A stretch of DNA of 64,000 bases, taken from the NCBI GenBank assembly GCA_964023205.1, contig OZ026833.1, positions 42,191,137 to 42,255,136 on the forward strand. The letters are read 5' to 3'. Source of the DNA: Lutraria lutraria (taxonomy: Eukaryota; Mollusca; Bivalvia; Venerida; Mactridae). The notes under the pieces are model-generated. The model saw only the letters and a list, made by a program, of their open reading frames with translations. It made no database searches and had not been told where the DNA came from. Position 1 is the stretch's first letter, and every line of letters starts with the position of its first letter. This document shows positions 18,201-57,685 of the stretch, piece after piece. A program made the position numbers and the translations under genes.

Positions 18201-20152
18201 ACAGGCTTTCTTGCAAACGTACTTTGCTCCAGCAGGGTGACATTTCTCGTCATCTGCGCATGCGTGATCAGAACAAGGTCCCTGAAACATGTGCACACTT
18301 ATTGTAATTAATTGTAAAAATAAATCATCAAGTAGTAGTAAAGTGCTCTAACACGGCAATAATTTGTTTTTATTCATTGTATATTAAAGCACATGGTCTA
18401 CTTCAAGGATTTGCATCGATACTTTGACTATAATTTTCGGTGACATGTAAAATTAAAATGATAAAACCTGTAAAGGCGATATAATGAATATATCTTTCAT
18501 AAAAAAATGGACACAAAACCTATAAAAGAGTTGTTAGATCTTTTTCGTTTGAATTTATTTGCGTCAAGCAATATCCACGTCTTGGTACGTATAGGTGCAC
18601 GTGATAATTCAATATATTACGGTGTCGGTGTATCAAAAACGTCTTTAATGAAGATGTGATGCTCAAATATTAAAGTCAAACATGTGCACTAAGGCCACCC
18701 TTGGGAAATACATAATGTCTCCTTTAATCGGAGAACAGTTTATCAATGACGGTTTTGAAGAATGACCTTCATTCACAGAGTGACCTTTATTCGAAGATGG
18801 CCCCTAAACAGGGTTGAATGTATATATAACAGGAACAGTTTATCAATATACAGTTTATGAGTTGGGAGTTTGAACAATTTCCCCCGTATAAAGGAAGCAG
18901 GCAAATATCTTCATTATAAACACTATTTTCTGGTGCACCCTATGATGACATAACCTGCGCATGGCGCATTTTAAGGATCGTTAGATAACGTCCCCAGTAA
19001 ATATATAACATAAGAAACTGATTACTAAAAAAACACAAACATGTACAATCAAATTCCACGGCTTTGATACAGCGGCCCGATACCTAGGCGACAAATGTGT
19101 TATTAACCGAAAAGAACAATTCATCCTAGTATGTGATAGTACTAGCTGATGTAAGTCAATGTTGGGACTGTCAGGAATAAATGACTGAAGTTTTGCATTT
19201 ATGTACTGGTTCATCCGCGAGTAATTCATTTGTAATTCAATTATGATATTGAGTGCTGTGTCATTTGTTATCAGTGCATCGGTTTTTTATTAACATTTCA
19301 TCCGTGTAGTTCCTATTTGTTTCCCAGTAGGAAATAATTGTGAGGTATGGCACTCTAATTCTACAAACAGTTCCAAGTCCTGAACTTTTATATGATCCTT
19401 TGCGGTGGGTACGTCTTTTGGATTGGGATTTAGGGGAAGGTAGAATTTTAAGGAAGAATTGATGTTTTGTATGCGCTTTTTTGGGGAATCATTTACCTCA
19501 GCTATATCCATGCTCTTATATCATGTGTAGTCATTCCTAACGATTGTATAACAATGGTCCAGTTAGGACTATAATATATGGACAACTTAATTTAAGAAAA
19601 TGATCGTTTGCTTAATCGCTACCAATTCTACAATATTTACATTCGTTTTTGTACAAAGCCTTTACAAGATCTTAATGAATCTGTATTAGTATGATGAACT
19701 GCTTACAAATCTCCAAAAAATGTAACACAATGCATAAATAACGAAGAAAACATTCATTTCAGATAAAATGTTTTACCTAAATGTTTCATAAAACGTGTGG
19801 TCAAAAACAAATTATTTCACTAAATTAAATGCAAAAACGGACATACCACATTCCAGTTCCTAACATCCGAGAGAAACATCCCACCAAAGTATTTTTTAAC
19901 TGGTACATTATTCTCGCGGAACAGAAAGCAGTCCCTGGATATCCTAAAAAACTGAAATGCCCCGCACTCGGACTCAGCCCTACAAACTCGTATGCATTCA
20001 TTAAGTGTATATACCTTTGCATAACGCATTGCATACATACTCATCTTATTTAATTGTTTATTCGTGGCGTTTACACGTTCACAATCCTTCGCATATTTCG
20101 CGCTCAAGTATGTGATAGAAATAGCAATAAACAAAACTGTTACAAAAGACAT
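5935..20152 (-). CDS. Secreted PAN-EGF-PAN protein (3 exons, 224 aa)
   Basis: Exons 20152-19847, 18281-18203 and 6224-5935 total 675 bp, exactly 225 codons including the stop, with every junction in phase. The product starts with a hydrophobic signal peptide (residues 1-18). It is followed by a PAN/Apple domain (about 24-100; Cys 24, 53, 57, 63, 75), a short four-cysteine EGF-like module with spacing C-x4-C-x5-C-x8-C (about 104-125), and a second, diverged PAN-like domain (about 130-210) with an EC-x3-C pair and a later KCTC. No membrane segment is seen, so it is probably secreted. PAN domains bind protein or carbohydrate; the partner here is unknown. Intron 1 is 1.6 kb and intron 2 is 12 kb because a Harbinger-like transposon lies in it. 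The join of exon 2 to exon 3 rests on phase, strand and domain logic across that insertion, and is the least certain step. Confidence 0.65.
6304..6603. mobile_element. hAT-like MITE with CAGGGGCGTAGC ends
   Basis: The left end CAGGGGCGTAGCTTG and the right end, read on the other strand, CACTGGCGTATCTTC are imperfect inverted repeats 300 bp apart. 'attcc' flanks both sides, possibly the remains of an 8-bp target duplication. It lies in PAN gene intron 2 and does not encode anything. The family call rests only on the termini. Confidence 0.45.
6780..6925 (+). repeat. Left terminal repeat cluster of the Harbinger-like element
   Basis: Two direct copies of the terminal motif (6780 and 6850) are interleaved with palindromic GATCGTACG and CGTACGATAATCG words. 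Clustered subterminal copies of this kind are usual transposase-binding sites, which is inference here. Confidence 0.7.
6949..7154 (+). pseudogene. Harbinger transposase N-terminal exon, frameshifted
   Basis: An ATG at 6949 opens a frame starting MAALVLLNRRRRR and continuing through a basic run to KFRPRLED. It then hits a stop near 7026. One base shift later it resumes with ARYRLNEESIYELKS and SPSTNRSCALSS. This order (Arg-rich start, RPRL, RYR, then a SP-TNRS-AL block) is the known N-terminal pattern of PIF/Harbinger transposases. It ends at a good donor, AAG|GTATGT. The helicase-like recognition block and the DDE catalytic exons that should follow are not seen. I conclude this is a broken copy. 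Confidence 0.7.
7155..9060. other. Interior of transposon, possible terminal exon at 8091-8245
   Basis: It holds a dispersed-repeat fragment near 7730-7870 with the phrase 'ggtcaataggtcaaaggtcac', related to one at 54960-55000. A plus-strand frame runs from the acceptor-like 'attttcag' near 8091 to a stop at 8245 and could be a last exon of the transposase. Only position supports this, since no motif is recognisable. AATAAA-like signals occur near 8960. Confidence 0.25.
9085..9350. repeat. SINE 3' tail fragment and family E repeat
   Basis: 9110-9175 contains 'acataactgaaaa', 'atgttgaaaaacgg' and 'gttaaacc', the same tail as the SINE at 14508-14815. 9200-9350 contains 'gacaggctgtctttaatcag' and 'acagggtggccattattcga', matching family E copies near 18.7 and 60.3 kb. 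Confidence 0.5.
10256..10345 (+). repeat. Dispersed repeat, inverted partner at 26312-26385
   Basis: The blocks 'ctgaaggttctgctgttg', 'ttcggaactacaaag' and 'agtcaaaagttgaatt' occur in the opposite orientation at 26312-26385. The second copy stops at a different boundary, so full ends are not defined. Confidence 0.6.
10360..11110 (+). repeat. Bivalve-type tandem repeat element, copy 1
   Basis: About five diverged units of roughly 130 bp, each carrying 'gacctagt', 'gaccc', 'atgaccca', 'cattctgacaa', 'gaagatccaat' and 'gttttcc'. The block ends at 'cgacgcacgacgc' followed by 'agctcac', a terminus repeated at the second copy. This type of repeat is very common in bivalve genomes. ORFs across it are artefacts of the repeat. 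Confidence 0.75.
11395..12320 (+). repeat. Bivalve-type tandem repeat element, copy 2
   Basis: It starts with 'ggccaatatggccctatatc', runs through about six diverged units of the same monomer as at 10360-11110, and ends at 'gtgatcacaatagctaacc'. Minus-strand ORFs of 66 and 90 codons here are periodic translations of the monomer, not genes. Confidence 0.75.
12365..17086 (-). CDS. Myb/SANT-like protein of the Harbinger-like element (nine exons)
   Basis: Exons on the minus strand: 17086-16952, 15663-15597, 15059-15004, 14286-14249, 14047-13985, 13453-13379, 13115-13065, 12895-12845, 12480-12365. From the second exon onward all junctions keep phase and the frame is open to the stop. The first two exons encode a trihelix-type Myb/SANT DNA-binding domain (GKFSFAV, KADFWTEVTE, then NSVSKIKRTVDQ and KKKWIDLK). 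KTGG and VEGIPNGTD follow, as in Harbinger-associated Myb proteins and the domesticated NAIF1. The last exon encodes a helical, Leu-rich tail. In exon 1 the ATG frame needs a one-base shift near codon 4, or an unseen upstream exon. In Harbinger elements this protein escorts the transposase to the nucleus and to the element ends. Confidence 0.7.
13704..13740 (-). pseudogene. Decayed partial duplicate of a Myb-gene exon
   Basis: 'ctcagtttcactaccaact' and 'aaacttgc' repeat the 3' part of the exon at 13985-14047 ('gagtttcactaccaact', 'aaacttgc'). The splice donor is replaced by poly(A). It is a short duplicated exon relic in the adjacent intron. Confidence 0.5.
14508..14815 (+). repeat. tRNA-derived SINE, family 2, full length
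   Basis: The head reads GCCCAGTCAGCTCAGTGG and then TTAGAGC, an A-box-like start. A weakened B box (GTGAGTTCTTACCCC) follows, then a body and the tail 'tatgactgaaataatgttg' running into 'gcgttaaacctgatgaaac'. It lies in an intron of the Myb/SANT gene. Confidence 0.7.
16074..16146 (+). tRNA. tRNA-Ala(TGC)-like sequence, probably repeat-derived
   Basis: 73 nt fold as a tRNA. The D stem is GCTC/GAGC. The anticodon loop CTTGCAA gives anticodon TGC at 16107-16109. The T stem is a perfect GCGGG/CCCGC, and the discriminator is A. The acceptor GCCCGAT pairs with AGCGGAT with two mismatches, and the anticodon stem has one A-G mismatch. The G3-U70 pair that defines alanine tRNAs is absent. Two related copies (46028, 46257) share flanks as well as the tRNA part, so this is more likely a member of a tRNA-like repeat family than a working tRNA gene. 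Confidence 0.5.
17199..17327 (-). repeat. Right terminal repeat cluster of the Harbinger-like element
   Basis: Two inverted copies of the terminal motif lie at 17231-17250 and 17308-17327, with CGTACGA words between. They match the left cluster at 6780-6925 in reverse orientation. Confidence 0.7.
17891..17914. repeat. (CA)n microsatellite
   Basis: A C-run followed by a short CA dinucleotide run. Confidence 0.8.
18203..18281 (-). CDS. PAN gene, exon 2 (four-cysteine EGF-like)
   Basis: 79 bp between the acceptor TTTCAG and the donor GTAAGT on the minus strand. It starts in phase 0, as exon 1 ends, and leaves phase 1. The encoded module begins GPCSDHACADDEKC and continues to a fourth cysteine. 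It is shorter than a full six-cysteine EGF. Confidence 0.75.
18680..18820 (+). repeat. Family E TA-type MITE fragment
   Basis: Contains 'agtgacctttattcgaagat' and ends 'agggttgaatg|ta', matching the termini of the copy at 60288-60467. It lies in PAN gene intron 1. Confidence 0.55.
19847..20152 (-). CDS. PAN gene, exon 1 (signal peptide and first PAN domain)
   Basis: The ATG at 20152 is followed by a hydrophobic stretch (SFVTVLFIAISITYL) and a PAN/Apple cysteine pattern. The exon closes with AATGTG|GTATGT after 102 full codons. Downstream ORF codons beyond the donor are intronic. Confidence 0.8.
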
Positions 20153-21434
20153 AACTACATTTAATAACAGAAGAACTGAATCAAGTTGAAAACAGTCATA
20201 AAACGCAAGCTAACTTTGATCACAATTTTCAGCACGTAGGAAGAATCCAACTGATCGAATCCTTAAAATGATGCCACGTATATATCTATAAAGCAATGCG
20301 CGCGCAGTTAATGGGCGTATAATGGTTGTCATGTAATTAAATTATGAAGATTGTATAAAGTTGGAATGCAGTTTGCTGTTCACGATTCAATTATTTTTTT
20401 TCAATTAAATAAAAACTACTTAAATGAAAAGAAAGATAATAAAATAATAAAATGAAAATGGAACATAAATTTAGAAACAAATTGTGGACTGCGTACCGGA
20501 ACGCAGTAAGAATGTAAAGCACTGTGAATACTCACTGACATTAATTATTATTAACTATTTAATTCAAAACTTTTTCTACCTAATTTAAGGATAACGGACC
20601 CGGATAAAAATGTTTAGTGATTATGAACCTAAGTTAGAGGTACCTGATTGTTATAAATTGTGACAATCAAACATAATTGATGAAATATCAACTTTCAACC
20701 ATACAACATTTTGAAATGTTTGACCTGGGTCAGTTACGTTTTACTTCATATCATAAAGGGAGATAATAGTAACTGTTACTCCCCCTTTTCTATGATTATA
20801 TAGCTGTTTTAATTTCTTGTTTAATTCCAAAAATTAAACAATTCAAGCTCGTGGTGAATGGTTTATAAATATTTCATTCTATATGCGTATTTAATGTTCG
20901 GATTTATATTTTGACCAATGGCATCGCAGTATTTTTCAAATTTGTCGACCGGTTAACTGTATTTAACCATAAGGTTGATTGAATAACTCGTTTAACATTC
21001 GGATCTGTATTTAAAGCTTGATGCGCATGCATTATCGTCAAAACATAGATCCTAACATTAAATATACTAGTGTTTGTTATCGCTGGTTGCTCGCTCGGCA
21101 AGCGCCGAGCCTGAGCGGTTAAGTTTGTTTAACCAGCGATAAATAGATAAGAGTTTAATGATTTGAAATGAATATTTGTTTTAGGGTCTAAAGTCCTTAA
21201 AAATTTATATTTAGTCTGACATCATCTGAATTCAGTGAGAAAAATATTGACAATTAACAATAACTGGCAAGTAAATTTACTCTATATGTTCGGACATAAT
21301 TTTTGTATTTTGCTTTTAAATGACTGAATAAAGTGTTATGTATCTAAGATATACTGGCCTTTATTATCCAGCCGCATCAATGATGTAAAGAACCACTAGT
21401 ATACCAGGCAAATGGTAATAAGAGAGACCTACTC
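20153..21434. other. Upstream region of the PAN gene
   Basis: Presumably includes its promoter and 5' UTR. No TATA box or other site can be assigned convincingly. Confidence 0.3.
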
Positions 21435-30248: not shown

Positions 30249-30342
30249 ATGGCTTCGACACATTTGATTATGGATTTTTTTGTAAAGCTTATAATAACAA
30301 CCCAAATTGTGATCTTCCTTGACGCAGACATTGTTAGAGCAG
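30249..30342 (+). CDS. Receptor exon 1, signal peptide
   Basis: ATG, a polar start and then a hydrophobic run (FFVKLIITTQIVIFL), ending GCA G|GTAAGA in phase 1. The start is chosen because the frame joins exactly to the EGF exon. An upstream noncoding exon cannot be excluded. Confidence 0.75.
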
Positions 30343-33300
30343 GTAAGATCTGATTTGTCTCTGTCAATGATGATAATAATATTATATTAACATGTCGCAG
30401 ATTACGTCTTTATGTTGATAAAATTTAACAGAGATAATACGATGAAATTTCTTTTTAACTGAGTCCACTATAATAATAATGATGTAACTTAGATAAAAAT
30501 CAAAGTACTGAAAGTGAACTTACATAGATTTGCACTTCAACATGTAACGGGAACTATTTTAAAGGCCCGTCAGCTTTTTGGAGGTTCAAATTAAACTAGG
30601 CCTAATTTTGCCTAGAAAAAAGGTCCAACAATGAAACTGACTTTCTCTTGCAATAAAAACATTCCGAAATTTCTTTTTTTAATCACGAAGTACATAGATG
30701 AATGTAGCACAGATTTTTTTGTCAACGATATTGCAACAAAAGAAGAAAAAGCATCTGGCAACATTTTTACGAAATGTGGCTAAAGAAAGGCATTATGTGA
30801 ATATTGCTTAAAAGCAATTAAATGTATTTCTTATGGTTTACTATCATTTTATCGTTTGTTCTGTATTACTAAATTCAGAAAGCTATGGGCTTTAACAATT
30901 GTATGGCGGATGTAGAAAAACGTAGTACTTTGGTCCGCATCAGAATTCATGCGCGCTGAGCAAGTGACAACTTTGCAAAGCTAAACTATCGCTCTGTTAC
31001 CAACATCAGCACTTCAAAATATATCAAGCTAAATTTATTTCTATAGTAACATAATAATTATAAGAATATTTTTTTTTTAATTGCAAAAGAAAACAACACC
31101 TTTAAAACTCAAATTTCTTGAATAAAAATATAACGTGTAGTAATCAAGGTAATTCTTGTATATAGGTGCTGATAGTTGCATTTACACTGACATTGTGTAT
31201 ATTAATTGTTAAATTTTCTAATTATTTCCTTCACAAATAGGCAACATTTAATATACCAGTTTGCTATTTGTATTCATCAACCTTGGTTTCCCGCCGTAAC
31301 ACGTCATCTTTTTACTAAATCTTCAGTCTCATAGTAAATGCATGAAAGGAAGGACGAGTTACGTTTTACTTAAAGGTTATTGTGTACTTTCAGGCTGAAA
31401 AGCCACTTTGGGCCACCTAGACTCAATTTCATAATTGTCACATTCCCCGTGATAAGGAAATAATATAGGGGAGAACCCGCGACAATTGTAAAGAAGAATA
31501 ATGCAAATTTGTGCTAATAACTAGGAAAGTGTTGTGACTGTACTACAAAGAAAGTTATTACAGTTTAATTCATTCTCCCTCTATAACTCCTTATAGTGCA
31601 CCTGTCACCGCCATTTGAACGATACCGCAAAAAACGTTGACTTTCGAGGGAAACAACTTTTCTGATATTAAGCCTACACATAAGTGATGAAAGCTGGCAA
31701 TTTGTACTTGCGTGTTAAAATTAAACTCGTAGATATCAACTTTGTTTCGTTTTCGTCGAGTCCTTGTTTTAATTTGCTGTCAATAATGATAAGACTATCA
31801 TGGTTTGATAAATTGATTAATTTTATCAATTCTGTCGTCTTTTAGATTAAAGTGCTCCAAAAATGCATGCAGTAATATCGAATTTTACTGATGCTTTTTT
31901 TATTAGTGGCTATGTAAGTTTTTCGCATTACAAGATACTATAGAAGTTTCTTTCAGAAACAAATGTATAGATAGGATATTTTGTATGTTTTATTTTCAAT
32001 ACTCGGAAGTTTTTTTTCTTATATAGATGTATAAATAGTAACCACTCTTTTGTAGCGGACTGTTCCAATAAATATCAAGACGTGCCAACATTTAAGAATT
32101 GCCAATATCGTTGCCACTGTGTAAATGACACAGCATGTGACGAGGATACGGGGGAATGTTCCGATGGCTGCGAATTCGGTTGGATGGGACCTGGATGCCA
32201 ATATCGTGAGTAGCGTCTGTTACATGTTCGCATAATGACTACAGACTTTATCGAACCACTCCACGGTAGTCTTGCCTGTTGGTGCACAATGGACTTGAAG
32301 CCACGATAGTTCATTGGATTTTTATTTTGAACCCTTGGGCTGAGCACCGCTAGCAAAGTGACTTTTGATTAATGTGTTGATTAATTAAGTGTTCTTACAA
32401 CTTTTCTCTACAACTATTGTTATAATTCAGTAATTCATTTTGGGCTATGATCGTAACTGAATTTTATTCCATTCAATAAGTATTGGATTTCTTTAGTTTC
32501 CGATAAATAAAATCGATTGATGTTCATGAATAGTAACAATTAGTCTTGCAAAATATTTGACATACAATGTAGTTAAATTATTGTGAGAAATGCGAACTTG
32601 TATTTCGTTTACGCGATAGTATTTAATATGCAAAATTGTCCATTATCTTAAATACAAATTAGCATATAACTATAGGCCGGTTCGATTGGACTCTCGTAAG
32701 AAGAGAATACGCTGGTAGAAGAGCTCAGAAAAGAAACCCAATCGAACGCAATCGCAGCCGAAATGTTTGCGTCTGAATATTAGGTATGACTAAAACTAAC
32801 CGTCAAACCATTTTTCGTTAAACCGTGTAGATAAACTTATGCACACTCTGACATTGTAAACAATGCTGTTTGGTCATGTGACTAATACCTCTTACACCTC
32901 TTCTAACCATCAGGCGGAATAGATAGAAGAGCTTCTAAAATTAGAAGACGACCAATCGAACAGTTTAGAAGAGCTGTGCCTCTTCCGGCAGCTCTCCCGT
33001 TTGACCAATCGAACCGGCCTTATAATTCAGTAAATCAAACTAAATACAAGTTAAATGATCATTCTTGATAACAACTTCCCAAACAATATTTCCATGTAAA
33101 TATATAAATCTATACAAATGTAACAACCTCCAATAAACAACAGCATGATTGTTCCGAACAGCGCGATTTAACTATTTACATGTATTTAACCTTTCTGGAG
33201 CAACATACTTTTATCAACAACTTAATTTCGCTACTTCCAGATTATGTTACTTTAGAGAGGTTGCAATGTATAAATGTAATGTAAATCGATGTCAATAAAG

Positions 33301-36300
33301 GTGTGTATTGGATGGTTCTCCGGCCTATACTAACCAAGTAACGGGGAAAATAAATGGGGTTTCCATCTAGGGCCCAACATAATTATTCCCAAACATTTCT
33401 CTGATTTTGTCTTTTTTGTGCAAACAGGTAACATTGCGAAATACAACAAGTTTGTCACACAATTTAAACGAAACTCAAACTCTGCTTATTATGCCCGAAA
33501 AGCTGTTGATGGTGATTTACAAACCTGCTCTAGGACAGCCCCCACTGAAAGCTCTGTGCAACAGTATTGGTACATAACGTTTGATAAAACACATCAAGTT
33601 CTTGGCCTGATAATGAAAGTTCCACATAAAGACGTGGGTGAGTAAATTGCAAAATAATCGATTTTTTGTTATCATTATTTGGTTAATATTGTTGTTAGTA
33701 TTTAATAAGTACATGACAGTAAACCGCATTATGCGGCAAAACGTTTGTTCTGTACATCAAATTGTTATTTTATTTGTAAAAAATATATGATGATAAAAAA
33801 TCATAGCTTATAGTCTTGTTTAGAGTTGCTGATTCATAAATTGCAAAACTCTAAAGTTTAAGAATCTCGTAACTAATGTAACCAGAGCGCTATACGAATA
33901 AAAAAAAACTTATTTATGAACGTTCGGTTACTTCCAATTTTGTTTTGAAAGCGTATTCATTTTATTAATTTGGTTAGAATACGTTACGTTAGTGGCATGC
34001 GTTCGATACATACTGTTCAAACCCCTACAAAACAAAACATCATTTATTTGTAGACAACTTTCGACTGTTCAGTGTTACGACAGGCGAACAATCTGATGAG
34101 ATTAATTTCCCAACACTCTGTTACCGTCATGCGAATTCTAGCATTAAGCAGAATATGGAGATATTGTGTAACCAAACAACGAAAATTAAGCAACTAAAGA
34201 TCACGCTGAACAAGCCAAAAGTATCACTGCGTTTGTGTGAGGTAGAGATTTACGGAGGTATGACAAAATTATATCAGCCTATTCTATAATGGTAACTAGA
34301 ACAAGTATTCAGTATAAAGATATACTAACGTTACCTTTCTACATGAATTGTCTCGTTTGTGGCACATTAATGTCGCACTTGTCACAAAAAAGATACACTT
34401 CCTGGTAAAAATATCGCACTTACCGTTTAATGCCTCGAAAGCCGCCAAGTGTCACTAAATATTCTGCCGTTATATGTCGAAATTTAAACGATACATTTCA
34501 TACCTTTAAAGTCCCATAAGTTTATAAACTTATCGGTCGTAACAGTTTCTGTCTGTCCTATAACCAAGGAATCCGGTGTGTTTTCCTCCCGTGCATACTT
34601 TATAGCGCAGGTGCCTGACGAATCTGGTCTGACACGCCCCCAATATACACATAATAAATACAAGGTATGCAACGAGTCGTTTTTTCGACTTCACACTGTC
34701 CCGAAATAATGAACAACTGAGAAGACAAATGAAGTCCTATGATCAAATAAACTTATTCAGTCGGCGCTTAAATAATTATTCTTCCTATACAACACATTTT
34801 TTTTTATTTCAAAACGAACTTAAAGGCAACGTTTTATGCTCAGTTTCTACGAAATATTGCCGTTTTTGGAAAATCGAGTTAAACCTGTCCCCTCGATTTC
34901 ACGCTTTAACTCATCATTTTGGCGTTTTTTCCGGAGATTTATACGTAAAGCATATGTGTTTTGGCATGTACGTATTTCTTCGATGTTTCGACACTGATTG
35001 CAGGTATAAAGACAATCCTACCTGGTTTACTAATCGCAATAATCGTTAATTTCTACAAATAATCAGTCCTTTCGTTGACACAACGGCCTTTTTGACCGAA
35101 GTAGTCCGCATTATTTAATCATTCATATAATCTATCACATCATTGGTCAAAAATAAAAAGAAGTCACATGTGTTTTAACTACAACCAATGAAAATGTTTG
35201 TTTATTATTTCACGTGACGTAAGCCCTACATGTGGACTTGTTCGGTCAAAATGGCCGTATTGTCAGCGAAAGGACTGATTATTTGTAGAAATTAACGATT
35301 ATTGCGATTAGTAAACCAGGTAGGATTGTCTTTATACCTGCAATCAGTGTCGAAACATCGAAGAAATACGTACATGCCAAAACACATATGCTTTCCGTAT
35401 AAATCTCCGGAAAAAACGCCAAAATGATGAGTTAACGCGTGAAATCGAGGGGACAGGTTTAACTCGATTTTCCAAAAAACGGCAATATTTCGTAGAAACT
35501 GAGCATAAAACGTTGCCTTTAAGTTCGTTTTGAAATAAAAAAAATGTGTTGTGTAGGAAGAATAATCATTTAAGCGCCGACTGAATAAGTTTATTTGATC
35601 ATAGGACTTCATTTGTCTTCTCAGTTGTTCATTATTTCGGGACAGTGTGAGGTCGAAAAAACGACTCGTTGCATACCTTGTACAGGGTGTCCCAAAAGAA
35701 AGGTAACACTTTCATACATGTTCAATGTTCCTTTAAGTTGCAGATGAATACATATTATATATATAGACATGTAGATCAAAGATGTATTTTTTTGTGTCAG
35801 AGAACCTTATAAATATCTTCATAATTTGCAAGTTAATACAAATTTGAAAACAAAAGTGCATTTTTCATCATTGACGTCGTTTAAGTAATTTTTGACGTTT
35901 TTGATGTGACGACTTTTCATCCTCTTCACTTATACATTTTTGTACCATATACGCACGATAAAATTATCTAACACGTCTTTGCTGGACTTTCTTTACCTTG
36001 ACTTTGATTTGTTTCAATCATTGAAAGACACCGTATCCTCAAAGATGAACAGTCCAATTTATACCATGGCATGAAGTTGCACGCCGCGAGTTTCTCACTG
36101 TGTAGTGGTCTCTCCGCAAAAGAATGAGGTCTCTTTTGAAAAACAAGTTTGTTAATATGCTCAAAAAGAAGTCTCATACCTTACAAACAACTGGTTCATA
36201 CAGGGTGGTGGTATGGCACATACATATCAAGTAGTGTACTATACTTTCTACAAATATATTTGGTGATTGAGTAATATTCAGACGATATATACGGAGGTGA

Positions 36301-39300
36301 AATATTGCTGAATAGCTCGACCTGCGCATAGTCTTAACCTCAACCCATGGAACTTTTTTCTTCGTGAATATTTTTTAAGTCTATAGTCCTAAGGCACCAA
36401 CCAAAGAAATGCTGTTGAAGTGTTAAAGTGGTATAGATTTTATCATGCGTGTATGGTAAGTAAGAGGATGAAAGGTTGGCACATCAGAAACGTCATAAAT
36501 TACTAAAACGACGTCAATGATGGAAAATGCACTTTTGTTCTCAAAATTGTATTAAATTGCAAATTATGAAAATATTAATAAGGTTCTCTGAGAACAAAAA
36601 ACTTACATCTTTGATCTACATATCTATATAAATATTATGTATTCATCTGCAATTTAAAGGGACATTAAACATGCATGAAAGTGTTACCTTTCTTTTGGGA
36701 CACCCTGTATTTATTATGTGTATGTTGGGGGCGTGTCAGACCAGATTCGTCAGGCACCTGTGCTTTATAGCAAGAACAAGAACAACTATAACAAAACGTT
36801 ATAGTTAGACGAATTACAAGAAGCATATTGGTTTATGTTTTTTGCATGAAGTTTTTTTTTCATAAAGGATATTGACTGTATATTATATTCAATCTCCCAT
36901 TATGGAGAGTCGAACATATTTACATGATATGAGTAATACACATATATTGACAATCATGAGTATTTGACAAATGAATAAATTCATGTATATAGTTCACAAG
37001 CACATGGTAATATCATACCCTAAATCAATCAAATAGAATAAACCCTAAATGTTAACAAATTCACCATAATCTGCTATAATACAACCACATTTAGCTTCAA
37101 ATAGCATTTCAGATATTAACACAACAGCTTATCTATGAGAAATGCCTGCATGATTTACTTACCTATCAACTATAAATAGATTCAGTCATCACTGTTAGCC
37201 AATCAATTGGCCAGGATTAGCCAAACTACTAATAGACACTATAAACTAATACTCATAAGTATAATTCGTCTAGAAAAATGTTTCCGAAACCACTATCGTA
37301 TTTTTGAACAGGATTGCTTGCAACATTGTTCTTGGTTACTACCAGTTTTCGACCCTCACAGACTCAAAATCTTTAGCGGAATCTAAAAATAGATTTCATG
37401 GCTTCCCGAATCACAACTTAAGAAGAAGCTCTTCACCAAACGCCAAAACATAGTTCCAAGGAGAAGACGGTAATCGGTCATATCTGGTTCACACTATCTA
37501 TATAAAACGACTTTGGTGTAAAGACAATAATATAATATATGTTGCTTAATGAGTGGAATCAAATGAAATACGTTAAAACAAAAGTCGAACATGATGAGAT
37601 TACTGAGCAGCTGAACTATTGACAGCCGGTTTGTATGTATATAAAAAACGAACTTCGTCATAGCAAGGAGATTGGTGGACTAGCGATAAGGATGCTCGCT
37701 TACGGAATAAGAGGTCATGGGTTCGATACTCGATAGTAGCATATTTTTTTTATTTATATGAACTTTTTTCATATAATTAGATAAGACATCAAAGAGAAAG
37801 TACATTTGGGTTAAAAAATGTATTTCAATGAAATAAAAAACAAATCTACATGAAAAGTCCAAATCATAATTATATGCAGTTTTCATGAAAATTGATTAAA
37901 CAATATCAATAATCAACAAACTGCCTAAAACATGTAAATAAATTGTAATTTGTAAATCGTGGCTGTGTGTGTGGAACTCTGTTGCTGATAATGCAACTGT
38001 CTAACCTCAGGATCAAACCCTGTTCTTCCAGCGCTATCAGCGCTTTGATTTTCAATATCATTGAAATAATTACTATTTATAGAACAGTTGTGTTTTCCCG
38101 CAGTCATGTTGTGCACACGTCGTAAAGTGACGTCACGCGCTGGAACATATTTCCAGTTTACAAAAGCAAAAATCACAGTGAAATGATCGTGTTGAGAAGA
38201 AAAAGGGCTTGTATCGTCGGTAATAATTATCTTGGGATTACATCAACTATTGAATGTTTTTTGCATATTTTGTGTATAGCAAAAAGCTAATGGGAATTTA
38301 AATGAATATGCTTCACATATACATATATTAATTAAGGTGTTTGCGACATTTAACGGCAATTGTGACATTTGACGGCAACGTTGCGACATTTAAGTTATTT
38401 TCCGGTACTTGTAGCAGACGACGCATGTGAGGACAGTTCAGTTGCAAATATTAATACTACGAACGGTAACATTTACGCTACATACAAGAAGAAAAAATGT
38501 CGTAATATCGCCTCCAGATGATTTATTCAAGATCGATATGACCCCTGAACTTGAAGTCCTAGGTTTGAAATCTTGCTTAGTAGGGAATGTTGTTTCTCGT
38601 TTGATACACAGGTAAAAGGACTGGTGAATAGACTCAAAATCAATATGCTTGACTCAGAAACAAATCTCACCCTGGGCACGAGAAAACTTATACTTATCTC
38701 CAAGCCTCGTTCGAGATTGCCTTATCCACAACCCAACGCAATGGTAGATTCACTACTTCCAGAACTGGGATAGAACAAATGGTGTCTCTAGTAAATTCCT
38801 TAATTATAGAATGTATAAACATTAAATAAATATGTTTTTGAGAAATAGTTTTAAGTCTTACAGACAGATCTTGCCAATGCCTTTTGTAAATTCGGGTTGA
38901 TGAAGCATACACTTCCCAAGAGAAAGGAAGATTTGAAAATGTTGTCCTTGAGCAGACACCATGTCATTTATGTGGCGATAATTTATTAGGTGATGAATTG
39001 CACTACCTGTTTAACTGTAAATATTTTGATGTTGCAAGATAGAATAGAATATTTAGAGGAATATTTCAATACATTCACAACAGCCATGAAATTCTCGTGT
39101 CTGATGAATAATAAAGGCAGGGGTGCATTGCTATAACTAGCAGTATCTTGCAAAAGATTTATGTCTTAGATAAGTTATTGGTGAGTAAAAGCGAAAATAA
39201 AGTATAATGATTGGGCATATCTAAGCATTAGTCTATAAGGTAATAGCGTAATGTAATAATATAATTGGTTATAGTTTTTTAAGTAATTAACTTCTCATAT

Positions 39301-42300
39301 TATATTTTTCTGATTTATACTGGTAAAATATATATTCATTTATTCAAAATATTCTCTATATGCGTTCTGCTATGTTTGTTTATACATCGTATGTTATATT
39401 ATTTTTTTACATGCTCATATAGGCCTTAACTTGTTAATAAAAGCTTTTGAAAAAACTTCTGACATTTAACGGCAGTTGTGACATTAAACGGCAACGTTGC
39501 GACATTTAACGGTAAGTGCGACAGTTAACCGTGACAAAATATCTAACTCCTTCAAAATATGAAACATATTGTAAAATTAAAGAAGGTATTTTGAAATAGT
39601 TATTTTTTTATACAATTATGTTTACCACATGTAAATTCATGTTTTCTTTTGCAATGTCCGAATTTCTGATCAATCATTTCCTGATGTTCGTGACGAACTT
39701 ACTGTATAAAGAAAGACACATTGTATGAACATTCTTACATCTATGTTTGAGTGACAATTTCCTGTTTGACAAATACTGTAATTGATTACATATTACATGT
39801 ATATTGTTGTTATACAATATTCTATATGAATAAGGGAGAAGTGTGGCGTTTAATAAGCCGACAAAACAGATATCTACGTACCACGATAGGTACAAGAACG
39901 TATTTTGGAACGCTTCAAAAGCAGTAGATGGACATTTACCAACTGATTGGTATGATGTTTGTTCAGCTACGAAAGATGAGCTTGTTCCATGGTGGAGAGT
40001 GGATTTAGAAACACAATTTGTATTACATGATGTCCAGTTCTATGGAAGACGGGGACGGGGACACCTAAGTATAATGAATTTCCTAACCTAATATTGATAT
40101 TAAACATTGAGACATATGTTCAATTTAGTAAATTTTGATCGCTCAAAATTTCTGATAATGTTATGGTTGAATCCTATAAAAGATCAGTTCCCTGCGTTGT
40201 GAATATGATTTTGTATTGTTAATTTGTTGCTCAATAAATCATTATTTGATATACAGGACAACCTCTCCAGAGTTGCCATCTCTTGAGCAATAACCTTCCT
40301 TCAACAACAACATGATTTCGCTTCTTTCAAAGGATGTTGCTTTGAATAGGTTGCACTGTACATTTAATATTTCATAAATTGACTTCGCGCTGTTTTTTTT
40401 TTCATGAAAGCAATCTGCCTGCTTCCTGAGGTATTAAAAAAGTGGTGATTCATGCATTTGTGGCTTCGCATTGTGTAAAGATATGTATTTTGTGTACCAG
40501 TCAAATCATCTAGACAACAATTGAAAAATTAAAATGAATACATGTATACTAAACTGGTGTCTCAAATAGTATTTTATTGAACTTGAATTTATGGCTACTA
40601 AAAGAAAGATTGTGGGCTCGATTCGCGGGCCCGCCTTTCAATATTTCAGGGACGCTTTTCAGTGTCCATATCATAACTACCGAGCAAGTACTGTGTTCAG
40701 AATATCACAGGAAACGGATGAGGCGCGTTATAATCGGTGCTTAACACCGGAAAAAATAAAGAAATGAGCACAGGAATAGGTATCTCCTCTCCTGTCTTCC
40801 TGTGTCTGCTCTGAAATGTCCATAGTTGTCGAATAGGCTGTTAAACAACAGATAAATAAAAACATCACATTTTATATTCAACAGAACTGACACGAAGTAA
40901 CTATGAAAATATGGATACGTTTCTTATAAATTAACATGAAATAGACCTAATATAACCAGATTTTTGTAAAGGTTTACAAAGGTATGTGTGAGATATATTT
41001 TTACAAAAATCATCGTCTACTTCAGAACAATTCAGAGGTTTTTGTCTGTATTATGGAACAGATGAAGACACCATGACTGAGCTGTATCATGATATGTCAC
41101 CTCCAAATGTGCCTGTCTCGGCTTACTTTCCAATGGACATACTTGTTAGTCCGTATGTCACTGGACAATACTTACAGATTGAGCTTAAAAATACCAGTTA
41201 TGTTGCACGGACCAAAGGCACCGCCTTACTCGCAGTGTGTGAGGTGATCGCTTTCGCTGGTAAAATACCATTTACTATATACGCGTATACATAATTAACT
41301 TACAGACGTCGATGGGAAAATGAAGCTACCCAAAACGTTAAAATGCTTGGTCAGTTAATTGCTTTGCATATAGAGGGACAGGGTTTATTTGTTCATGTGT
41401 AGCATACGATGAGTAGTTATCGTTCTTGGGAATTTAAAGTGACAACCAATGCAGTAGAGCCTTTCTAATCCGAACGTGTTTTGACCGACAGAAATGCTCG
41501 AGCTGAAGAGGTTTTCGGATCAGAAATGTTCAGGATTTCCGAGTTTTTAGTATTAATATATAATGCAAAATCTGGACCACCTGATTTGTTCCGTTTAGTG
41601 AGGATTCCGGATAAGAAAGGTAGGGATTAGGAGGTTCGACTGTATCGCAATAATTCCAATATGAATTCCAATATGAAAACAAGAAAAGCATCTTAAGTAG
41701 AAAACCTTCTACTGCACCACCGTAATTATGTGAGCAATTTGTAAAACGTCTGCTTTGTATACAATCAGATCTGCGAGTATGTTTGGCGTTGCTGCATATT
41801 GTATTTCTAATCCACACTCAACTTTGAATCTGAATCAATTTAATTTATGAGGACTTACTTCAAATACTCATTACAGAATGTCCAAAGAACAAATGCGGCT
41901 GGGACTGTTCCAAAAGTTGTCATTGTTCTACAGAAATCACCGGAAGTTATAAAATAGAAGGAACATGTCCATATGGCTGTAGTGGACGTTGGACAGGAGT
42001 GAATAACAAATGCGACTATGGTAAAGCAATTTTCAGAAATTGCATTCATTACATCGAACAGTTTACCATTAAACAATAATGCATACAATAAAATATCACC
42101 AGTTACTAGTATTTAGTTTTAATTTTGGAACAGACAACGAGCACAAAGGGGACTTAATAATACGCGGTATATTTCATGCAGTATACAAATATTCTCATTA
42201 CGTATGCAAATCATCATTTCATAGAATGCAACTTATCCAAATGGGGAACACGGTGCGAGAAAGCATGTCCAGGAAACAAGTCATGCCATGTTGTAACCGG

Positions 42301-44343
42301 CGAAAATCTGCTTGAATCCGACGGGCTATGGACGCCATCAAAAGGTAAAATACACAATTAACTGGACTGATTTTCTTACATTCCGGTCTTGAAGCATTGC
42401 ATCCAAACAATTACTCTCCCCAAAATCCAGAAGACAACATCCATACCCTCAGGGTCGACTTGAAAGTATCTCAATGCCAACCTTAAATCGAAGGTCTTGA
42501 ACCATGTTGTTCTGTCGTATACCTGTTCTTAAGTAACGCATAATTCTGGCATTTGGCATAGTTGTGGCAAAAATATGGCAGATACAGTTATGGTACAAAT
42601 GATATTTGCCTGAAGTTGAATAGCCAACTTGAAGATACTTACATTTTTTTAGTTCAATCAATCTGATGATAGAAAAAGTTGGCCAAAGTCAACATAAGCC
42701 TTTAAAAGTCGATGTGCGCGTATATGATTAACAAGTGTGCCAACATGGACGTATTGCGCGACACATTACTGAACTTTTTCTATTCACAGAATCGTTGATA
42801 GGAAAGTAGAGATGTTCAAATGACATCATTCTGAAGATTTGTTTATTATTATATAATAGTAACAATTGTTATCGACGGTCTATCAAATTCACAGAAAATT
42901 CCTGAAACATATCTATAGACATTTCCCGACTTGCTGACTTGCTTGATAACTTCGTGTTCACTCAATTGTGATATCATTGCGAATTGCCCCGGACAGTTTC
43001 CCCACTGCACGAGGTTACATGCCTTATATTCATCATTTTTGGTAAGCTCTTTATCAGAACAGAACAGAACAGAACAGACTTTTATTTACAACTTGTTTAT
43101 CACGTACATCCGTTATTATTTCTAATAGAATAATGCATGAGTTTACGGTGTTTAAATCATTCAACACTGAATGACCTTATTACTTATTTGACAGTATACA
43201 ATAAATATTAGTTAGTTCTAGATGTAAGACATTGTTTAATAAAGGCTGTGATAACTGGACCATAGTTGCTATTGTTGGTGGTCCTGCTGGGGCAATAATA
43301 GTTGCATTGATAATGACAATAGTATTCCTCATATACAGACGAGAAAGGTCAAAAAGGTAATATCTAAAGTATTTATGATTAAAATTTTGTAAATATTTAT
43401 TTAAAATGCTTACATAAATAGTACAATATCATTATACATAACAATATATGTTTTTCCTGTTTAAAACTAGTGTTCCTTTCGATTTCTTTAATATGTTAAA
43501 CCAACAAGAATACAATCGCGTACAGACCCACCATCTTACCTCATTGCGTATCTAGCATTAAGTCAGCGTGTGTCACGCTTGTAGGTCCTGAAACTGGCTG
43601 CGATTTTTTTCTATGGTGATTCTTTTGTAAGTTTGTCCTCTAACATTCTTCCAGCGATTAATATTACGCAAAAGCAGGTTAACGTTCCAGAACTAAGTAG
43701 TGCTGATACATGATAAACCTGGTAAATCAACGGCCTGTCGGTGTATAATATAGCATGCTGCTGAAAACGGGAGTAAACTCCGAAAAATATATACTCACTC
43801 TATCGTGCAATATTGTCAAGATTTTTATTTTCATCACTGTTTTAAAAGAAGACGTGAAATGAAAAACACTATTGCTACATCTGATGAGCCCACGTATGAG
43901 CAAATCGATCGGGGAACAGGTTAGTTCAGTCTTATAATACTACATGTAGTTAGTATCTCGTACGTCATAAATATATTTTTATCTTTAGTCAATTCATTGT
44001 CAAACATTATTCGAAACTTCGGTAATCTATGTCGGTAGAATAGTTCTGGGTGCAATTAATTTTGTTTAGGACATACGTGAACTAGTTCAGAAATCGACAT
44101 GATTACTTTATAAATTATTCCTGATAAACACTAACCTACATCACAGATAACAAAGCCACGGGTTCAATATCACAGTTAAACAGTATCCTACATCACAGAT
44201 AACACAGTCACTGGTTCAATATTACAGTTAAACACTACCTTACATCACATAAAACACCATAACGGGTCAAACTCGATTTTATATAAAGTCTATGTTTTGC
44301 ATTTACAGAATTATCGGAGAAAACGTACCGTGAACTCGACTAA
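30249..44343 (+). CDS. ITAM-bearing EGF/fucolectin-domain receptor (11 exons, 535 aa)
   Basis: Exons: 30249-30342, 32056-32205, 33428-33637, 34054-34257, 39835-40068, 41026-41259, 41877-42020, 42225-42344, 43245-43356, 43849-43919, 44309-44343. They total 1608 bp, 536 codons with the stop. Every donor is GT and every acceptor AG, and all junctions keep phase. Domains: signal peptide 1-31; laminin-type EGF 33-81; two fucolectin/F5-8-like galactose-binding domains (83-219 and 222-374), each split over two exons; EGF-like 377-423 and 425-463; transmembrane helix about 469-493; basic stop-transfer 495-506; tail with Y517EQI and Y531REL. Ten residues separate the two motifs, within the ITAM spacing. 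Inference: a cell-surface pattern or apoptotic-cell receptor, analogous in layout to Draper/MEGF10, signalling through a Syk/Shark-type kinase. The usual fucose-binding Arg pattern is not obvious, so the ligand is unknown. Confidence 0.85.
30478..31000 (-). repeat. Family C repeat split by MITE B
   Basis: The minus strand of 30892-31000 and 30478-30562 together reproduces the family C sequence seen intact at 27845 and 28865. The break is at the TTAA used by the MITE. Confidence 0.75.
30563..30891. mobile_element. TTAA-flanked MITE, family B, copy 2
   Basis: The ends are AGGCCCGTCAGC and GCTATGGGCT, with TTAA at 30559-30562 and 30892-30895. It lies in receptor intron 1. The uninterrupted family C copy at 27845-27990 shows the pre-insertion site with a single TTAA. 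Confidence 0.85.
32056..32205 (+). CDS. Receptor exon 2, EGF-like
   Basis: The acceptor TTTTGTAG and donor C|GTGAGT give a 150-bp phase 1-1 exon. It encodes a laminin-type EGF with CHC, CDEDTGEC and a GWMGPGC ending, plus one N-glycosylation site (NDT). Confidence 0.85.
32675..33019. mobile_element. MITE with GGCCGGTTCGATTGG inverted ends
   Basis: A 15-bp perfect inverted repeat lies at both ends of a 345-bp noncoding element inside receptor intron 2. The interior holds several 'agaagagct' words and their inversions. The flanks 'ata' and 'tta' might be a decayed 3-bp duplication, as in Harbinger MITEs. Confidence 0.7.
33107..33268. mobile_element. Family D MITE, decayed
   Basis: 'gtaacaacctcc' at the left, 'gagaggttgcaatg|ta' at the right and 'agcaaca' words inside match the other family D copies. 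Confidence 0.5.
33428..33637 (+). CDS. Receptor exon 3, first half of fucolectin-like domain 1
   Basis: The acceptor is CAAACAG and the donor GTGAGT, phase 1-1. The encoded ARKAVDGDLQTCSRT and QYWYITFDKTHQVLGL are the fold-defining blocks of galactose-binding-like domains. Confidence 0.85.
34054..34257 (+). CDS. Receptor exon 4, second half of fucolectin-like domain 1
   Basis: The acceptor is TATTTGTAG and the donor GTATGA, phase 1-1. It ends LRLCEVEIYGG, the characteristic last strand of this domain family, and has two N-glycosylation sites. Confidence 0.85.
34607..36763. mobile_element. Giant palindromic (foldback) element with 8-bp target duplication
   Basis: TTTATAGC flanks it on both sides (34599-34606 and 36764-36771). 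The left arm (about 34607-35104) is the near-exact reverse complement of 35240-35682 joined to 36708-36763, leaving a loop of about 130 bp. The ends are GCACAGGTGCCTGACG-type, with a 2-bp CA deletion in the left copy. Without the mariner-like insertion in its right arm it is about 1.13 kb. The 8-bp duplication suggests the hAT or P type. The two 106-codon ORFs are mirror images of the arms and diverge by frameshift, so they are not genes. Confidence 0.8.
35683..36707. mobile_element. Mariner-like element with long inverted ends (1025 bp)
   Basis: TA|CAGGGTGTCCCAAAAGAAAG at the left and its inverse ending CACCCTG|TA at the right. The inverted similarity extends about 290 bp inwards, leaving a centre of about 440 bp without a recognisable transposase. 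It is inserted at a TA in the right arm of the palindromic element. Confidence 0.8.
36777..37273. mobile_element. Insertion in MITE A copy 3, short TAGACGAATTA ends
   Basis: It fills a gap in the family A consensus. 'gttagacgaattac' near the left and 'gtataattcgtctag' at the right form a short inverted repeat. Otherwise unknown. Confidence 0.4.
37308..38048. mobile_element. Insertion in MITE A copy 3 with a tRNA-like SINE head
   Basis: It fills the second gap. 37665-37740 has an A-box-like and a B-box-like start (GGTTCGATACTC) typical of tRNA-derived SINEs, followed by AT-rich sequence. The right part holds another inverted B-box-like segment (near 38010). Confidence 0.4.
38340..38395 (+). 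repeat. 22-bp GACATTTAACGGCAA repeat, left block
   Basis: About two and a half units of 'gcgacatttaacggcaattg'. The same block recurs at 39463-39522 on the far side of a LINE fragment. Confidence 0.75.
38396..39462 (+). pseudogene. LINE insertion, 5' truncated
   Basis: Its 3' part encodes the C-terminal zinc knuckle of a LINE polyprotein. The frame includes LPQEKGRFENVVLEQTPC, then HLCG, GDELHYLFNCKYFD and a stop near 39046. The 3' end is A-rich ('aataaaagcttttgaaaaaa') and abuts the right-hand GACATTTAACGG block. No catalytic core is seen. It lies in receptor intron 4. Confidence 0.75.
39463..39522 (+). repeat. 22-bp GACATTTAACGGCAA repeat, right block
   Basis: Near-copy of 38340-38395, with one further unit 'cggtaagtgcgacagttaac'. 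Confidence 0.75.
39835..40068 (+). CDS. Receptor exon 5, first half of fucolectin-like domain 2
   Basis: Acceptor 'gaataag' and donor CTAA|GTATAA, phase 1-1. The acceptor has a weak pyrimidine tract and is chosen because it is the one that keeps phase. It encodes ASKAVDGHLPTDWYDVC and WWRVDLETQFVLHDVQFYG, the strongest domain match in the gene. Confidence 0.85.
40254..40358. mobile_element. Family D TA-flanked MITE, 105 bp
   Basis: TA|CAGGACAACCTCTCCAGAG at the left and AATAGGTTGCACTG|TA at the right, in receptor intron 5. Confidence 0.7.
41026..41259 (+). CDS. Receptor exon 6, second half of fucolectin-like domain 2
   Basis: The acceptor CTACTTCAG and donor G|GTAAAA are in phase 1-1. It begins QFRGFCLYYG and ends LLAVCEVIAFA, the last strand of the domain. 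Confidence 0.85.
41452..41642. mobile_element. Family F MITE (CAGTCGAACCTCC-type ends)
   Basis: Left CAGTAGAGCCTTTCTAATCC; right, read inversely, CAGTCGAACCTCCTAATCC, followed by TA. Pogo/Tigger-like termini in receptor intron 6. Confidence 0.6.
41877..42020 (+). CDS. Receptor exon 7, EGF-like
   Basis: The acceptor ATTACAG and donor G|GTAAAG are in phase 1-1. Cysteine-rich module with CGWDC, CHC and CPYGCSGRW. Confidence 0.85.
42225..42344 (+). CDS. Receptor exon 8, EGF-like, membrane-proximal
   Basis: The acceptor TTTCATAG and donor AAAAG|GTAAAA are in phase 1-1. It has four cysteines (CNLSKWGTRCEKACP...SC). It looks like a degenerate EGF followed by a juxtamembrane linker. Confidence 0.8.
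43047..43092 (-). repeat. LINE 3' end with (TTCTG)n tail
   Basis: On the minus strand 'acttgtaaataaaagtctg' is followed by four TTCTG units. The same tail ends the LINE at 47042. It is a very short 5'-truncated insertion in receptor intron 8. Confidence 0.55.
43245..43356 (+). CDS. Receptor exon 9, transmembrane helix
   Basis: It enters in phase 1 and leaves in phase 2 (AAAAAG|GTAATA). It encodes TIVAIVGGPAGAIIVALIMT followed by IVFLIYRRERSKR, a single-pass helix with a basic stop-transfer. The acceptor tract is purine-rich (TTTAATAAAG), but phase and content support it. Confidence 0.8.
43849..43919 (+). CDS. Receptor exon 10, cytoplasmic tail with first ITAM tyrosine
   Basis: The acceptor TTTTAAAAG and donor ACAG|GTTAGT run from phase 2 to phase 1. 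The encoded tail ends DEPTYEQIDRGT. Confidence 0.8.
44309..44343 (+). CDS. Receptor exon 11, second ITAM tyrosine and stop
   Basis: The acceptor TTTACAG leads into ELSEKTYRELD and a TAA. The very short last coding exon completes the ITAM. A candidate AATAAA lies at 44590-44595. Confidence 0.8.
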
Positions 44344-44589: not shown

Positions 44590-44595
44590 AATAAA
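44590..44595 (+). terminator. Candidate poly(A) signal of the receptor gene
   Basis: AATAAA about 250 bp after the stop codon. Not the only such hexamer downstream, so tentative. Confidence 0.35.
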
Positions 44596-46027: not shown

Positions 46028-46100
46028 GCCCGATTAGCTCAGTTGGAACAGCATTTAACTTGCCATCAGGTGGTCGTGGGTTCGAGTCCCGCATCAGGTA
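46028..46100 (+). repeat. tRNA-Ala(TGC)-like copy, decayed
   Basis: Same family as 16074-16146. It has a nearly perfect acceptor (one mismatch), a decayed anticodon stem, and shared flanks: 'tataaattggctg' upstream and 'tacattattttcct' downstream. Confidence 0.65.
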
Positions 46101-46256
46101 CATTATTTTCCTTATCCTATTACATTTGATGCCGTTAGTGTGTGACTAACCTAAAGAGTCGGGGAATTTTGCGTTTAATTACTTTGAGAAAATGGAAGGA
46201 GGAATGTATCTAGCAGTATGATATAGAGTATTTATATTTATGAATTGACTCAAACA

Positions 46257-57199: not shown

Positions 57200-57685
57200 T
57201 TTTACAGCCAATCCCCCCTAACCCGAAACTTTCTATAAGGCGTAATTCTCTCTACACCGAACCTTTCTATAAGGCGCAATTCTCTCTACATCGAACCTTT
57301 CTATAAGGCGCAATTCTCTCTACACCGAACCTTTCTATAAAGCGCAATTCTCTCTACACCGAACCTTTCTATAAGGCGCAATTCTCTCTACACCGAACCT
57401 TTCTATAAGGCGCAATTCTCTCTACATCGAACCTTTCCATAAGGCGCAATTCTCTCTACACCGAACCTTTCTATAAGGCGCAATTCTCTCTACACCAAAC
57501 CTTTCTATAAGGCGCAATTCTCTCTACACCGAACATACCAGCTGGTCCCGGCATTTTAATCATACATCTATAATGCTAAAAAAAACTATAAAAAAAAACA
57601 AAAAAAACATTGTAATCCGAAACCTCTCTGATCCGAACATGTTTGTTAGTCCGATCAAGATCGTATAGGAACGGTTCTATTGTAT
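57200..57685. mobile_element. Family F-like TA element carrying the minisatellite
   Basis: 'ttttacagccaatcccc' at the left, and at the right 'ctctgatccgaacatg', 'gtccgatcaagatcg' and 'ggttctattg|ta'. The right end inverted resembles the family F start at 41452. Confidence 0.45.
57224..57535 (+). repeat. 34-bp minisatellite, about nine units
   Basis: Unit 'cctttctataaggcgcaatt' plus 'ctctctacaccgaa', repeated with only a few substitutions. Confidence 0.95.

Follow-up and report, generated by a model that had tools for sequence, protein, structure and literature searches.

An 11-exon gene in a 64-kb window of Lutraria lutraria DNA (the window being the whole stretch analyzed) is predicted to encode a receptor with lectin-fold and EGF-like modules outside the cell, one transmembrane helix and a short tail that resembles an ITAM. 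On balance, we favor the view that its product is a type I single-pass activating receptor of the recognition or engulfment type, signaling as Draper does. This reading is supported by consistent exons, a lectin fold, a transmembrane-like stretch and a pair of tyrosine motifs.

Results

An 11-exon gene model

The exons lie on the forward strand between positions 30249 and 44343 and join into a frame of 1605 nt with no internal stops. The earlier note had described an 11-exon, phase-consistent frame of 535 residues; the frame was borne out, and the count corresponds to 534 amino acids plus the stop codon. All 10 introns are of the GT-AG type with compatible phases, and each of exons 2 to 8 is of phase 1-1. 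The start codon at 30249 is preceded by A at -3 and followed by G at +4, a signal peptide is predicted from hydropathy (mean of 2.12 over the 19 residues that begin at residue 6), and an AATAAA begins 3' of the gene at 44590.

We scored the splice sites on the forward strand (3832 GTs and 3028 AGs) with matrices representing general metazoan averages. Nine of the 10 donors ranked within the best 5.5% of the scored GTs, and seven of the 10 acceptors within the best 15% of the scored AGs; by these averaged matrices both splice sites of exon 5 and the acceptors of exons 9 and 10 were weak or unremarkable. An exon 5 start at 39839 was ruled out because it breaks the frame, which a start at 39835 preserves. 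Exon 10 has an alternative in-frame acceptor 3 nt upstream, whose use would add one Arg. The gene model is confirmed by these data.

Features of the receptor gene and of its fourth intron
Feature	Position	Strand	Evidence
Exon 1: start codon and predicted signal peptide (MASTHLIMDFFVKLIITTQIVIFLDADIVRA)	30249..30342	+	Donor within best 0.03% of scored GTs
Exon 2: putative 8-Cys EGF-like module 1, aa 32-82	32056..32205	+	Cys pattern, CEFGWMGPGC signature; no Pfam match
Exon 3: predicted lectin-fold domain 1, first half; AVDGD cation-type motif	33428..33637	+	PF00754, 1.6e-5 (domain)
Exon 4: predicted lectin-fold domain 1, second half	34054..34257	+	PF00754 on domain
Exon 5: predicted lectin-fold domain 2, first half; AVDGH, PWWRVDL	39835..40068	+	PF00754; weak acceptor and donor
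Exon 6: predicted lectin-fold domain 2, second half	41026..41259	+	PF00754
Exon 7: putative 8-Cys EGF-like module 2, aa 376-424	41877..42020	+	Cys pattern; no Pfam match
Exon 8: putative degenerate EGF-like module 3, 4 Cys	42225..42344	+	Cys pattern
Exon 9: predicted transmembrane helix and basic stop-transfer RRERSKR	43245..43356	+	Hydropathy 2.39; acceptor unremarkable
Exon 10: tail, tyrosine motif 1 DEPTYEQI	43852..43919	+	Letters; acceptor weak
Exon 11: tail, tyrosine motif 2 SEKTYREL, stop	44309..44343	+	Acceptor within best 1.6%
Nested inverted-repeat (foldback-type) element, intron 4, outside coding	34591..36777		Six arm pairs, 89-97% complementary

Two predicted lectin-fold domains and their relation to sugar binding

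The whole protein matched PF00754 (F5/8C) at 2.8e-14 in two stretches, the better one covering aa 242-353, and its nearest solved structure by sequence was the F-type lectin FBP32 (3cqo, 2.5e-12). Lectin-fold domain 1 alone matched PF00754 at 1.6e-5 (25.5 bits, below the cut-off of 28.2) and a solved fucolectin-related protein only at E 0.11. These matches argue for two domains of the F5/8C or F-type-lectin fold in the ectodomain, in line with the two fucolectin-like domains proposed earlier.

In the excerpted description of F-type lectins, the cation motif is h2DGx with N, D, or S at x (PMC5712786). AVDGD of domain 1 fits this motif; AVDGH of domain 2 deviates at x. The fucose motif HX24RXDX4[RK] had no match in the 534 residues, nor did the form with a His spacing of 22-28 or RXDX4[RK] by itself, the closest approach being RRGRGHLK in domain 2. 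As a control, the FBP32 stretch matched RXDX4[RK] and the His 22-28 form, though not the strict X24 form, and in the alignment to FBP32 the His of the fucose motif falls on Ala264 of domain 2. The receptor shares with FBP32 and with 1k12 the lectin-fold domain (in tandem in FBP32) and, in domain 1 only, a fitting h2DGx motif, but differs from FBP32 in lacking the fucose motif. F-type lectins such as FBP32 are not known as membrane receptors. Because the fucose motif of F-type lectins is absent, the case for sugar binding is weakened; the fold of the galactose-binding-type head postulated in the earlier note stands, and 'galactose-binding type' is here the name of a fold.

EGF-like modules

The EGF-like modules are candidates assigned solely by cysteine pattern. 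Modules 1 and 2 have eight Cys each, while the third, in exon 8, is degenerate with four, so that of the arrangement first described (one EGF before the lectin domains and two after) the two 8-Cys modules are retained and the last is reduced. Whereas the F5/8C profile matched, Pfam searches with the whole protein and with two pieces of it yielded no EGF family; module 1 matched solved EGF-like chains only at E 0.56-0.83. A scan of all 10 introns for Cys-rich missed exons (phase 1-1, 60-300 nt, at least three Cys, purine at donor +3) recovered exons 2 and 7 and yielded one candidate, in intron 4, with three Cys and without the look of an EGF. It found none in intron 8, and we rejected the idea that a missed exon there completes the third module.

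A short tail with an ITAM-like motif pair

A transmembrane stretch is predicted at about residues 470-493 (best 19-residue mean hydropathy 2.39), followed by a tail of about 40 aa in which YEQI, the spacer DRGTELSEKT, and YREL succeed one another. The ITAM consensus YxxI/L-x(6-12)-YxxI/L is matched by YEQIDRGTELSEKTYREL (aa 516-533, tyrosines Y516 and Y530), the sole match in the protein; the spacing of 10 and the position of both motifs in a single chain with the transmembrane helix are as previously claimed. The two motifs share the pattern E-x-T-Y-x-x-[IL], so that an acid lies at -3 of either tyrosine. The ITIM consensus, [ILVS]xYxx[LIV], has no match anywhere in the 534 residues, and NPxY has none in the protein. 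The tail therefore appears, by its spacing and lack of ITIM matches, to resemble an ITAM, as the earlier note had it, and is a candidate switch at the level of sequence. A similarity of the tail to a solved protein was rejected, as the only two matches had E values of 1.9 and 5.9.

We considered whether the pair could have arisen by chance in an ordinary adhesion receptor with lectin-fold and EGF domains, or whether the transcript mostly stops at exon 10, leaving a product with a single tyrosine motif. Random 41-aa tails matched the ITAM in 0.34% of cases, and residue shuffles of the tail did so in 0.28% (0.0165% with both -3 acids). When exons were chosen in shuffled sequence at the splice scores of the real sites, an ITAM arose in 1 of 1000 shuffles and none of the 1000 had both acidic -3 residues; this 1/1000 mostly reflects the scarcity of such splice-site sets, because the strict thresholds were taken post hoc from the real sites and only 54 candidate exon paths occurred in the 1000 shuffles, one of them with an ITAM. 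At a looser acceptor threshold some ITAM path occurred in 22 of 200 shuffles, and since about 0.3% of tails match, several chance ITAMs are expected among thousands of membrane proteins. For one tail taken by itself a chance match is unlikely; across all the tails of a genome it is not. An early end is favored by the weak acceptor of exon 10 and by its donor, read-through of which stops at once (YEQIDRGTG, then stop). Against this, that donor is strong (best 0.7% of GTs), as is the acceptor of exon 11 (best 1.6% of AGs), and at the thresholds of the real sites the real region holds only two exon paths, which differ by one Arg and both give the ITAM. We regard chance or early termination as an improbable account of the tail.

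YxxPhi is the consensus of endocytic sorting signals, and YEQI and YREL each fit it, as YxxI and YxxL do in general. With a tail this short, the product could act as a receptor for endocytic scavenging or for adhesion, its tail engaging clathrin adaptors and recruiting no kinase. A single sorting signal does not require a second motif at the ITAM spacing or acids at -3 of both motifs, and the low frequency of ITAMs among the tail shuffles also speaks against sorting as the sole role, which we hold to be unlikely. Sorting and kinase recruitment could coexist in the same tail.

Comparison with known receptors

According to the excerpted account of the SudRes1 region of Biomphalaria sudanica, receptor tyrosine phosphatases (RPTPs) at or near it carry EGF and galactose-binding-domain ectodomains on a single transmembrane helix (PMC12297450). 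The same ingredients were found here, with EGF-like modules called by cysteine pattern and two lectin-fold domains, and the earlier claim of an unfamiliar architecture is weakened accordingly. As far as these partial descriptions allow a comparison, both are single-pass mollusc receptors that combine EGF modules with a galactose-binding fold outside the cell, but the snail proteins have tandem intracellular PTP domains where the present one has an ITAM-like tail of about 40 aa and no PTP signature. An RPTP with phosphatase exons further downstream was rejected: exon 11 contains a stop, and HCxxGxGR, the single signature on which this rests, has no match in the six frames of the window. Pfam likewise matched no PTP family in the protein.

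The gene might be a paralogue of these mollusc MEGF/galactose-binding-domain phosphatases in which an ITAM-like tail replaced the phosphatase, giving shared ligands and opposing signals. Besides the common ectodomain ingredients and the missing PTP signature, this is favored by a further SudRes1 gene (contig c6), described in the same excerpt as expressing a MEGF/GBD-containing protein (PMC12297450), and by linked receptors of Botryllus with ITIM or hemITAM/core motifs (PMC12065747, in excerpt). However, the RPTPs are described with one galactose-binding domain and not two, the likeness is one of description and not of sequence, and HCxxGxGR, which an intron could split, reveals no PTP-bearing paralogue in the window. 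That the gene is an ITAM-tailed paralogue of these phosphatases is possible but doubtful; more doubtful still is that the gene forms the activating half of an unrecognized mollusc paired-receptor system, in which kinase-recruiting and phosphatase-bearing receptors read one ligand family. The paralogue reading is compatible with an activating, Draper-like receptor.

Draper and MEGF10 employ ITAMs with Src-family kinases and Shark/Syk, and the oyster receptor CgIgIT2 also has an ITAM (PMC8092387 and PMC11999971, both in excerpt). Like the present protein, Draper, MEGF10, and CED-1 are single-pass receptors with EGF-type modules, Draper and MEGF10 having ITAM tails; unlike it, they are described with NPxY and with an EMI domain in addition to EGF-like or NIM repeats (PMC8092387). 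The EMI domain is absent among the three Pfam families reported up to E 1 for our protein, which has two full EGF-like modules and a degenerate one, and two lectin-fold domains that the excerpt does not describe for that group. CgIgIT2 of the Pacific oyster is likewise a mollusc single-chain recognition receptor, but with five Ig domains in place of lectin-fold and EGF modules (PMC11999971). The Fester co-receptors of Botryllus are invertebrate type I proteins of 520-610 aa with Yxx[ILV] tail motifs; their excerpted description gives an Ig and sushi ectodomain and ITIM, hemITAM, or core motifs instead of a two-tyrosine ITAM (PMC12065747).

Searches for relatives gave no match in viral contigs (whole protein) or in phages (tblastn with domain 2), and two pattern matches, neither a relative, in genome contigs (a 205-aa piece with domain 2 and EGF2). 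Among the open-licence papers listed, no title or abstract opening pairs such an ectodomain with an ITAM in any mollusc. The interpretation in the earlier note is thus supported in part, and the novelty is narrower than first claimed, as the ectodomain type is known in snail RPTPs and the ITAM in an oyster receptor; what may be new is an EGF/lectin-fold ectodomain on an ITAM-like tail instead of a phosphatase.

Discussion

In the activating receptor that we favor, the two lectin-fold domains and the EGF-like modules would bind a ligand outside the cell; a protein surface, or one that carries glycans, is likelier than free fucose. The ligand would cluster the receptor, upon which a Src-family kinase would phosphorylate both tyrosines of YxxI-x10-YxxL (Y516 and Y530). 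A Syk/Shark-type kinase with tandem SH2 domains could then dock on the phosphorylated pair, leading to engulfment or another cellular response. Counting against this scheme are the weak splice sites of exons 5, 9, and 10, the 22 of 200 shuffles with an ITAM path at the loose threshold, the absence of the fucose motif and, in contrast to Draper and MEGF10, of NPxY, and the fit of both tyrosine motifs to sorting signals. Expression, phosphorylation, and kinase docking are what we infer in this scheme, as are the cell type, the ligand, and the outcome.

In molluscs, which have no antibodies, recognition falls to germline-encoded proteins that are either secreted or displayed on the cell surface. 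Association mapping ties one cluster of EGF/galactose-binding receptor phosphatases to schistosome resistance in snails (PMC12297450, in excerpt). If our reading is true, an ITAM-like tail on such an ectodomain would provide a concrete and testable signaling route for these receptors, and a paired activating and inhibitory arrangement in molluscs would become directly testable.

Gene model and splicing

The exons of the receptor gene were found by reading the window and by scripted junction tests, and their summed length of 1605 nt encodes 534 amino acids plus a stop codon. This confirms the 11 exons in a compatible frame described in the earlier note, with the protein length and the EGF count corrected. 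All ten introns are GT-AG, and each of exons 2 to 8 is of phase 1-1, as is typical of extracellular modules spread by exon shuffling. Splice sites were scored with average matrices and ranked against the scored GTs and AGs of the plus strand, which placed 9/10 donors in the best 5.5% and 7/10 acceptors in the best 15%. Exon 5 scored weakly at both its acceptor and its donor; exons 9 and 10 also have weak acceptors, and an in-frame alternative lies 3 bases upstream of the exon 10 acceptor.

Exons of the receptor gene and other features of the window
Feature	Position	Strand	Basis or description
Exon 1	30249-30342	+	scripted junction test
Exon 2	32056-32205	+	scripted junction test
Exon 3	33428-33637	+	scripted junction test
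Exon 4	34054-34257	+	scripted junction test
Exon 5	39835-40068	+	scripted junction test
Exon 6	41026-41259	+	scripted junction test
Exon 7	41877-42020	+	scripted junction test
Exon 8	42225-42344	+	scripted junction test
Exon 9	43245-43356	+	scripted junction test
Exon 10	43852-43919	+	scripted junction test
Exon 11	44309-44343	+	scripted junction test
Intron 4 nested inverted repeats	34591-36777		six arm pairs, 89-97% complementary
Intron 4 short arrays	38341-38393, 39460-39529		similar unit GACATTTAACGGCAA, ~1.1 kb apart
Intron 10 repeat	44125-44257		52-bp unit x2.6, between the two tyrosine-motif exons
Tandem repeat arrays	10428-10946, 11465-12185		similar 144-145 bp unit
Cys-rich open frame	18087-18347	-
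PAN open frame	19823-20209	-	PF00024, 9.5e-07
tRNA-Ala (TGC) matches	16074-16147, 46028-46101	+
Array	57223-57534		34-bp unit, about nine copies, 95% matches

Searching the window with the protein (tblastn, E up to 10) revealed no second copy of the gene; apart from the gene's own exons, its EGF modules weakly matched one another, and one further match had E 8.2. No PTP signature occurs in the six frames of the window. GC per 2 kb is 0.30-0.39, which together with the type of gene points to a mollusc as the source, probably a bivalve. The open frame with a PAN domain is probably one exon of a neighbouring gene, and no significant family was found for the Cys-rich frame. The inverted repeats of intron 4 look as if one foldback element had inserted into another or next to it, the two short arrays are possibly the ends of one mobile element, and the tRNA matches may represent either genes or short repeats derived from tRNAs.

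Extracellular domains and sugar binding

Against the whole protein, Pfam matched F5_F8_type_C in two stretches (2.8e-14) and the related PF22633 (3.6e-10); a third family, TM_ErbB1, was reported under its cut-off. Lectin-fold domain 1 is divergent, since by itself it reached 25.5 bits, short of the 28.2 cut-off, and E 0.11 to its best solved relative. No Pfam EGF model matched, and EGF-like module 1 gave at best E 0.56-0.83 against solved EGF-like chains; the EGF identity of the modules rests on their cysteine pattern. Modules 1 and 2 have 8 cysteines each and module 3 (exon 8) has 4; of the "two EGFs" before the membrane, one is thus complete and the other degenerate. The protein contains eight N-glycosylation sequons.

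Among solved structures, the F-type lectin FBP32 is closest in sequence to the whole protein. The fucose motif of F-type lectins, HX24RXDX4[RK] (PMC5712786), has no match in the whole receptor protein, nor do its form with a His spacing of 22-28 or RXDX4[RK]. The FBP32 stretch, used as a control, also lacks the strict X24 form but matches both others. The motif His aligns to Ala264 in lectin-fold domain 2, and alignment of the Arg loop after it shifts by one residue between readings. According to the same review (PMC5712786), some family members depart from the motif, and the basic triad is missing from five oyster isoforms. Of the proposed galactose-binding-type head, the predicted lectin fold is supported by sequence, and binding of fucose or galactose is not.

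Tail motifs

The claimed tyrosine pair ten residues apart held: Y516 to L533 is the sole ITAM match in the protein, and both halves read E-x-T-Y-x-x-[IL]. Neither an ITIM nor an NPxY matched in the protein. The tail has a third tyrosine, Y494, at the membrane.

When the residues of the tail were shuffled, 0.28% of the shuffles gave an ITAM by chance; random 41-aa tails with an average composition did so in 0.34% of cases. We also shuffled dinucleotides in the 1.2 kb after exon 9 and picked two exons at the splice scores of the real sites. An ITAM appeared in 1 of 1000 shuffles (one of 54 candidate paths), a figure that favours the finding because the strict thresholds came from the real sites; at these thresholds the real region has two candidate paths, both with the ITAM. 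In a looser test, with one loose acceptor threshold common to both exons and single-exon tails permitted, an ITAM path of some kind turned up in 22/200 shuffles. Across a whole genome, several ITAMs are expected by chance.

Comparison with known receptors and proposed function

In snails, receptor phosphatases whose ectodomains combine EGF and galactose-binding domains, the type seen here, number three in the schistosome-resistance locus SudRes1 and 14 elsewhere, 13 of them clustered nearby; SudRes1 contig c6 has one further gene, with a MEGF/GBD protein (PMC12297450). "ITAM" does not occur in the main text of that paper. An oyster receptor built of Ig domains carries an ITAM (PMC11999971). 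Because these sources describe such receptors, both tyrosine-motif signalling in invertebrate recognition receptors and this mollusc ectodomain type are already known. Their combination was not found among the matches listed in our literature searches. The earlier note's claim of an unfamiliar architecture is weakened by the snail receptors, and its receptor interpretation overall is partly supported.

The boldest reading, a paired system of this receptor with the phosphatase-bearing receptors, seems rather unlikely. We lean towards an activating receptor, of which the anatomy alone is shown here: a ligand would cluster the receptor, a Src-family kinase would phosphorylate Y516 and Y530, and a Syk/Shark-type kinase would dock on the phosphorylated tail, leading to engulfment or another response.
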